DNA from: Chloroflexota bacterium
GTDB taxonomy: Bacteria > Chloroflexota > Dormibacteria > CF-121
Assembly (NCBI GenBank): GCA_005882775.1
Contig: VBDY01000129.1
Span: forward strand, 1 to 59,319
Length of the DNA: 59,319 bases
Reading direction: 5' to 3'
The notes beneath the pieces were generated by a model. That model did not search any database. It saw only the letters and a program-made list of their open reading frames with translations, and had not been told where the DNA came from. Positions within the stretch are counted from its first letter, which is position 1. Each line of letters starts with the position of its first letter. Of this stretch, positions 1,742 to 43,143 are shown in pieces. Position numbers and translations under genes: made by a program.

Positions 1742-2138
1742 GACACTCGTTCCGATCCTGTCCGAGATGGACATCGTCATGGCCCGCCAGCAGGGTCGGG
1801 CTCTCGCCACCGAGCTCGGCTTTCGTCCCGGCGACCTGACCCTGATCGCAACCGCGATCTCGGAGATCGCGCGCAACATCCTCATCTATGCCAGCCACGG
1901 CGAGATCCTGCTCCGGCAGATCCAGGACGGGCCCCTCCGCGGAATCCTGGTGGTCGGCCGCGATCAGGGTCCAGGTATCCCGGACATCGACCGCGCCATG
2001 CAGGACGGTTACTCGACCGGCAAGAGCCTGGGGCTCGGGCTGCCCGGCGCGAAGCGGATCATGGATGACTTCAACATCGTCTCCGAGGTGGGTCGGGGGA
2101 CGACCGTGACCATGAAGAAATGGAACCGCAGGCCCTGA
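1731..2138 (+). CDS. rsbT: RsbT serine/threonine kinase (switch protein)
   Basis: 135-residue GHKL ATPase-fold kinase starting at GTG inside the end of rsbS. The N-box-like helix is SEIARNIL. The ATP-lid elements are RDQGPGIPD and GLGLPGAKR. RsbT phosphorylates RsbS and RsbR and then binds the N-terminal domain of its output partner. Here the only protein in the operon with such a domain is the histidine kinase starting at 2749, so the output may be a kinase and not an RsbU phosphatase. Overlaps the next gene by 19 nt. Confidence 0.92.
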   Translation: MLTETLVPILSEMDIVMARQQGRALATELGFRPGDLTLIATAISEIARNILIYASHGEILLRQIQDGPLRGILVVGRDQGPGIPDIDRAMQDGYSTGKSLGLGLPGAKRIMDDFNIVSEVGRGTTVTMKKWNRRP

Positions 2139-42117: not shown

Positions 42118-42654
42118 ATGGACATCAGTGGAAAGCTGGTCAAGCTGCGTGCCTTTCGGCCGGCTGATGCGCAACCTATCACGGAGGCGCTCGCGGATCC
42201 CGAGATCGTGAGCAACCTGGCCAACTGGTCGTGGGGACCATACGGCCTCAACGACGCCCAGGAATTTCTCAGCCGCCGCGACCCGAGCCACCTTGCCTGG
42301 GCAATTGAATGCCTGGCCGACGGGACTCTGGTCGGGGCAACCGGGCTCCAGGAGATCGACGTGCGTAACCGCCATTGCGAGTGGGGCATCTGGATCGGTC
42401 CAAAGAGCCGCTGGGGACACGGCTACGGAAGCGAGGCCTGCCAGCTTGCCGTCGGCTTCGCCTTCCGTCAGCTCGGCATGGAGAAGGTTTGGCTATACGT
42501 TTACGAGGGCAACGACCGCGGGCGCCGCGCCTACGAGAAAGCCGGTTTCAAAGTCGAGGGCACCCTGCAGCGACACGTCTTCCAGAACGGGCGATTCATC
42601 ACGGTCCATCTGATGGCCGTCTTTAGCGACCACCCCCTCTACGCCGTCAGTTAG
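42118..42654 (+). CDS. GNAT acetyltransferase (RimJ/RimL-like)
   Basis: 178 residues. Typical elements are LVKLRAFRPADA, the acetyl-CoA loop RWGHGYGSEA and NDRGRRAYEKAGFKVEGT. Acts on the N-terminus of a protein or on a small amine; the substrate is unknown. It starts 18 nt after azlD. TAATCT lies 11 nt before the ATG, too far for a clean leaderless call. Confidence 0.88.
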   Translation: MDISGKLVKLRAFRPADAQPITEALADPEIVSNLANWSWGPYGLNDAQEFLSRRDPSHLAWAIECLADGTLVGATGLQEIDVRNRHCEWGIWIGPKSRWGHGYGSEACQLAVGFAFRQLGMEKVWLYVYEGNDRGRRAYEKAGFKVEGTLQRHVFQNGRFITVHLMAVFSDHPLYAVS

Positions 42655-42695
42655 CCAGCCTTAGTCCCGGTCGACCGCGCGCTCGAGCTCCTCCC

Positions 42696-42764
42696 CGGAG
42701 GCTCGGGCCGACGCAGGCCCGAGCCGTGCCCGCCGGCCCAAAGCGCGCGTCGTAACGCGCGCAA
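42696..42764 (+). repeat. Left arm of a 69-nt inverted repeat (two hairpins)
   Basis: The reverse complement matches 43044-43112 at about 63 of 69 positions. The arm has its own secondary structure. GGCTCGGGCC (42700-42709) pairs perfectly with GGCCCGAGCC (42716-42725). GCGCGCGT (42743-42750) pairs with ACGCGCGC (42755-42762). Between them lies a 17-nt spacer that is identical in both arms. This resembles a REP/BIME-type or MITE-like unit. Confidence 0.85.
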
Positions 42765-42795
42765 GAGAGGCATACTCGGTTGGGGGCGGCTTGAC

Positions 42796-42981
42796 TTAGC
42801 TGCCGGTCTCGATCGAGGTCGGGCTCGCTTCTTTAGCCTCGCCTGATCGGGCGCGCTCCTTGTTCACCGTCCGCGCAGCGATTTCCTCGGCCTTTTCCTC
42901 GCTATTACCTCCCTCGAGGAGTCCCTCCTTGATGTGCTCGTATTGGCGCTCCCGTTTCGGGCTCCAGGCTTTCTGCGGCAT
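42796..42981 (-). CDS. Small 'plasmid stabilization'-type protein (DUF7218-like)
   Basis: 61 residues from ATG 42981, preceded by AAGGAGGTGAT, an almost perfect ribosome binding site. Sequence: MPQKAWSPKRERQYEHIK, then EEKAEEIAARTVNKERARSG, a highly charged helical protein known from rhizobial and actinobacterial genomes, often named plasmid stabilization protein without evidence. It lies alone between the arms of a 69-nt inverted repeat, which suggests it moves or is regulated with that structure. Confidence 0.8.
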   Translation of the reverse strand: MPQKAWSPKRERQYEHIKEGLLEGGNSEEKAEEIAARTVNKERARSGEAKEASPTSIETGS

Positions 42982-43043
42982 GTCAATCACCTCCTTACCC
43001 CTTCGTTTTATCAACTAGGTCCCTCCGGACAGAACCGCCTCAA

Positions 43044-43112
43044 TTGCGCGCGATACGGCGCGCGCTTTGGGCCGGCGGGCACGGCTCGGGCCTGTATCGG
43101 CCCTCGCCTCCG
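43044..43112 (-). repeat. Right arm of the 69-nt inverted repeat
   Basis: Inverted copy of 42696-42764. GCGCGCG (43046-43052) pairs with CGCGCGC (43059-43065). The second hairpin is imperfect here (GGCTCGGGCC against GGCCCTCGCC). Mismatches between arms are clustered at hairpin loops and one stem. Confidence 0.85.
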
Positions 43113-43114
43113 TC

Positions 43115-43143
43115 TTGACTTACCAGGCAGGCTCGACCATCAT
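43115..43143 (+). promoter_or_regulatory. Promoter of the DD-carboxypeptidase gene
   Basis: TTGACT, 17 nt, CATCAT, starting 3 nt after the right repeat arm. The TTG start at 43156 would be within about 7 nt of the transcription start. Confidence 0.45.

Follow-up and report, generated by a model that had tools for sequence, protein, structure and literature searches.

The stretch of DNA analyzed here (the window) is contig VBDY01000129.1 of the Chloroflexota bacterium assembly GCA_005882775.1, positions 1 to 59,319 of the forward strand (GTDB lineage Bacteria; Chloroflexota; Dormibacteria; CF-121). Between genes encoding AzlD and a D-Ala-D-Ala carboxypeptidase, a small gene read from the minus strand is bracketed by two inverted copies of a short repeat. 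The features are as follows.

42661..42690, minus strand: what is left of the 3' end of the small gene (ELERAVDRD*), beyond copy 1 and in frame with the rest of the gene
42695..42774, plus strand: copy 1 of the repeat, an 80-nt match to covariance model R1 (101 bits), with hairpin 1 at 42700-42725, linker at 42726-42742 and hairpin 2 at 42743-42762
42796..42981, minus strand: truncated resident gene, 61 aa left, with an internal stop at 42796-42798; the proteins of relatives are about 110 aa
42990..42996, minus strand: ribosome binding site AAGGAGG of the truncated gene, read from the sequence
43034..43113, minus strand: copy 2 of the repeat in the opposite orientation (model R1, 105.4 bits), with hairpin 1 at 43083-43108, linker at 43066-43082 and hairpin 2 at 43046-43065
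43115..43143, plus strand: putative promoter (TTGACT, 17 nt, CATCAT) for the D-Ala-D-Ala carboxypeptidase gene that follows

The inverted repeat reported in the preliminary description of this DNA is real. Its arms (42696-42764 and 43044-43112) are identical at 63 of 69 positions and lie 279 nt apart; when lengthened to 42696-42771 and 43037-43112 they agree at 68 of 76 positions with a spacing of 265 nt. Each arm folds into two hairpins, and the 17-nt linker GTGCCCGCCGGCCCAAA is identical in both. Searching the window with a core 20-mer (three or fewer mismatches) returned the two arms alone, whereas 0.05 sites were expected by chance. The DNA fold of copy 1 has a z-score of -4.2, and its hairpin 1 has Watson-Crick pairs in place of the tandem G-A mismatch. 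Note that CTTGACTTA is found next to both copies, at 42790-42798 (copy 1) and 43114-43122 (copy 2). At copy 1 it sits within ~37 nt that have no counterpart in relatives and at copy 2 it belongs to a conserved promoter-like element; it was possibly copied at insertion, or its presence beside both copies is chance.

The gene between the arms is a disrupted resident

The truncated gene product is 80-88% identical over 57-61 aa to proteins of 108-111 aa encoded by relatives. Read through copy 1, the frame gives ...TSIETGS*...GE-ELERAVDRD*, and the relatives' proteins end in ...AELERAVNR or ...AQLQRAVD... At this site ~117 nt (the element plus ~37 nt) replace ~126 nt of the relatives' coding sequence, indicating that coding sequence was lost when copy 1 arrived or that the gene was already damaged by then. 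The near-perfect ribosome binding site ascribed earlier to the small open reading frame was confirmed on the minus strand, 8 nt upstream of the ATG, and a CCTCCT-type site is retained in relatives.

Matches to the small gene were found in 55 of the 110 genomes of the class (own genome included), and its family is without a name in Pfam or NCBIfam, so that the earlier label of a 'plasmid stabilization' gene is tentative. The second match in its own genome (54% identity, on contig C120, which has no repeat hit) is a diverged paralogue. Five relatives of the same family lack both arms and have the gene in the same place, in the conserved order AzlC, AzlD, small gene, D-Ala-D-Ala carboxypeptidase, with DJ-1 and YetF also kept where the locus extends to them. 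The gene is thus a resident of the locus (high confidence) that is interrupted in its frame by copy 1, and not the cargo it had been taken for; the best explanation gives it no role in mobility.

Copy 2 directly precedes the putative carboxypeptidase promoter, and the five relatives lack it in their orthologous intergenic regions. TTGACA (TTGACW) and CATCAT precede the carboxypeptidase gene in all five, and judged from sequence the TTGACT/CATCAT element probably acts as a promoter. A GNAT acetyltransferase gene (42118-42654, Acetyltransf_3) is situated between AzlD and the truncated gene. The five relatives have no such gene at this position, and the spot has thus changed a second time.

A dispersed family of two-hairpin units

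The own genome is a draft of 2.85 Mb in 234 contigs (94% complete), and genome-wide statements rest on searches of it. The further copies that the preliminary description had proposed to look for were found. An 81-nt arm used as query gave 30 matches across many contigs, and covariance model R1, built from 16 copies, returned 26 full-length copies (72-109 bits) among 31 hits. The remaining hits are partial, degenerate or halves of composites, with one degenerate copy scoring 32.3 bits. Four copies (L027-L030) have the short linker GACGGCnCAAA in place of GTGCCCGCCGGCCCAAA and apparently form a separate subfamily.

The same model detected no copy elsewhere in the class (109 further genomes) or in a sample of 399 further genomes from the phylum. 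Stricter filters, which may miss weak hits, applied in both cases. No copy was present in collections of plasmids and viruses either. Two pattern matches, in Achromobacter and Anaerolineae genomes, were set aside as weak (15.5 and 27.3 bits versus 72-109 bits for full copies). As far as sampled, with relatives of the same family or wider and none of the same genus, the repeat is confined to one species.

The unit is non-coding and ~78 bp long, with the consensus CCGGAGGCGAGGGCCGATnCAGGCCCGAGCCGTGCCCGCCGGCCCAAAGCGCGCGCCGTAACGCGCGCAATAGAGGCGTT, and consists of hairpin 1 (GGC-GA-GGGCC / GGCCC-GA-GCC, containing the tandem G-A mismatch), the 17-nt linker and hairpin 2 (7 bp, GCGCGCG / CGCGCGC). 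The consensus ends are approximately CCGGAGG...GAGGCGT, between which no terminal inverted repeats were seen by eye. Target duplications were not found, the similarity between flanks being no greater than that of shuffled pairs (p = 0.90). In an alignment of 27 copies, which had been fitted to the structure of the model, 99.7% of stem cells form standard pairs; 14 cells over five pairs are changed on both sides, three cells have a one-sided change and a single cell is broken. None of 500 shuffles reached the observed covariation, and slid controls gave at most two cells changed on both sides. An unfitted alignment of 16 copies was 100% paired, with six cells changed on both sides and none on one side. 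The stems are maintained by compensatory changes. Because G-U intermediates are nearly absent, we lean towards pairing at the level of DNA.

Nearly all of the roughly 26 loci are intergenic, and most copies lie within ~20 bp of gene ends (taken from a simple ORF caller) in either orientation. Neighboring genes, named by their Pfam domains, include atpC, secA, lspA, carA-carB, ilvD, thrS and a Ku gene. The orientation of the element showed no bias relative to local GC skew (10 of 18). At L013:2-2477 a copy stands between secA, at its 3' end (SEC-C motif), and a small open reading frame with a SEC-C motif at its own end. At the carA-carB locus (L009) the full copy (2011-2088, minus strand) is immediately preceded on its 5' side by part of the element's 3' tail in inverted orientation, CACTGCCTCTATCGCGCGCG, which suggests template switching at hairpins.

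Copies are absent from orthologous sites and nest within one another

Empty sites were present in relatives at both loci compared. In addition to the five relatives that lack the arms at the window locus, all 13 aligned relatives lack the copy that directly follows the atpC stop codon between atpC and murA. The window copy 1 and atpC sites lost DNA or were short and thus are not clean insertions. At two unrelated loci (L013 and L019) the copies share 97% identity over 77 nt, and the similarity ends there.

In the composite found at both L010 and L022, one copy lies within the hairpin 2 loop of another (148 nt, 95%). A second composite is common to L021 and L025 (153 nt, 89%) and L026 is a shortened form of a composite. 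The presence of the same composites at unrelated loci indicates spread of each composite as a whole. Alignment by eye suggests for both kinds that the inner copy entered a CC/GT step of the outer copy. Nested copies provide natural empty sites, from which the ends of the element can be placed almost to the base.

Empty sites, identity that stops at the element ends and nested composites at unrelated loci indicate with high confidence that the repeat is mobile. The two arms of the window are best explained as separate insertions of one short, non-autonomous mobile element. This pair is the only inverted doublet in the genome, the other copies being single or nested. As a close pair is expected ~7% of the time among 26 randomly placed loci, the inverted pairing can be chance. 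Taken together, a mobile repeat and a resident gene are the reading we regard as very probable. Present-day activity is unproven, the comparisons being between species only, with none within a species.

Candidate enzymes and alternative explanations

No transposase had been noticed near the arms, and genome searches agree with this. The searches covered Y1 transposases, reverse transcriptase, TnpB and IS110. Y1 transposase (PF01797) is absent from the own genome and from the 17 others of the family set (18 genomes), and matches were found in 6 of the 110 class genomes. Reverse transcriptase and TnpB were not found in the own genome. IS110 was rejected as the mobilizing enzyme, there being a single gene with no repeat copy within ~1.5 kb.

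In the mechanism that we consider most plausible, the element strand would fold into two hairpins and the folded single strand, more likely of DNA, may be the form recognized by an enzyme supplied in trans to the non-autonomous element. The enzyme would paste the element mostly between genes without target duplication and sometimes with local loss of DNA. It may have been lost, be missing from the 94%-complete draft or be of another type than those searched. We put forward this step, a folded single strand acted on by an enzyme in trans, tentatively and with moderate to low confidence, its chances being a little short of even.

The enzyme could have been a RAYT tyrosine transposase, since lost, that moved a REP/REPIN family. 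REP and REPIN elements fall into GTAG and CGTC families (PMC3733652, PMC3116915), and the CGTC REPs lack a dedicated transposase (PMC3733652), a trait the present repeat shares. The likeness extends to short palindromic repeats in tens of copies (about 26 loci here) that are dispersed mostly between genes and sometimes inside them, and the absence of target duplication and the covariation of the stems also fit. However, neither a GTAG nor a CGTC tag stands at a hairpin foot or at the consensus ends, CCGGAGG and GAGGCGT, and the ~78-nt unit has two unlike hairpins in direct order. Moreover, no RAYT is encoded in the family, and the mobile unit is not an inverted doublet. Because end tags and RAYT were sought and not found, the repeat cannot be filed as a REP. 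Of the REP-like mobile element first suggested, the dispersed mobile family with its empty sites stands, whereas the REP tag, RAYT and doublet do not; a lost RAYT is an unlikely source of the family.

Somewhat less probable still is that the hairpin element multiplies without a dedicated transposase of known type, its hairpins being copied by single-strand or replication template switching or break repair and its ends being set by the two hairpins. Spread of this kind would account for the lack of a candidate enzyme, the local DNA loss at two sites, the inverted tail fragment beside the carA-carB copy and stems almost devoid of one-sided changes, but the ends (CC/GGAGG...GAGGC/GT) are rather constant for random copying.

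A regulatory RNA or terminator structure under selection at each site seems improbable. The structure is conserved and most copies are close to gene ends, but they occur in both orientations between co-directional, convergent and divergent neighbors, and no T-run follows the hairpin. The arms, rather than being unique and held at one place in relatives, are multicopy and absent from orthologous sites, and Rfam gave no match around the window copies. The context of the copies is more readily explained by insertions that the host tolerates than by a fixed role in regulation. Finally, the compact mobile cassette of the preliminary description, with the inverted arms as its ends and the small gene as its cargo, has in its favor the inverted arms around a single gene and is scarcely credible given the synteny in relatives without arms, the truncation of the gene and its interruption by copy 1, its wide occurrence in the class, its paralogue on a contig without the repeat and the solitary or nested copies elsewhere, which are flanked by unrelated host genes.

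Relation to known elements

As a short, non-coding, dispersed repeat that would depend on an enzyme in trans, the element resembles a MITE. It differs in having neither terminal inverted repeats nor a target duplication, and the earlier suggestion of a MITE is not upheld. Hairpins near both ends and the absence of target duplication recall IS200/IS605 elements and fit recognition of a folded single strand, although neither TnpA (Y1) nor TnpB was found in the own genome.

Mitochondria of fungi, sponges and others contain double-hairpin elements and GC clusters, small GC-rich hairpin units of sporadic occurrence for which a transposase is not known (PMC2800124, PMC4478555). In yeast the GC clusters merge into larger mobile units and have target duplications (PMC2800124, PMC4478555). 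The bacterial repeat is likewise small, GC-rich and sporadic, with two hairpins that form one mobile unit and pairing kept by double changes, and its composites resemble the merged yeast clusters; in contrast to these, it has no target duplication. The likeness is one of design only, elements of this length holding too little signal to show common descent. Our best reading is that of a species-restricted, non-autonomous, hairpin-recognized mobile repeat that works like REPs or the mitochondrial double-hairpin elements.

These results call for caution with short open reading frames found between repeats, which may be broken host genes. They also provide a small and clean case of a mobile repeat defined by its hairpins, from a bacterial lineage in which sampling is sparse. 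Being compact and, in the genomes sampled, restricted to a single species, the present family lends itself to testing how palindromic repeats that lack a transposase move, the CGTC REPs and mitochondrial double-hairpin elements among them.
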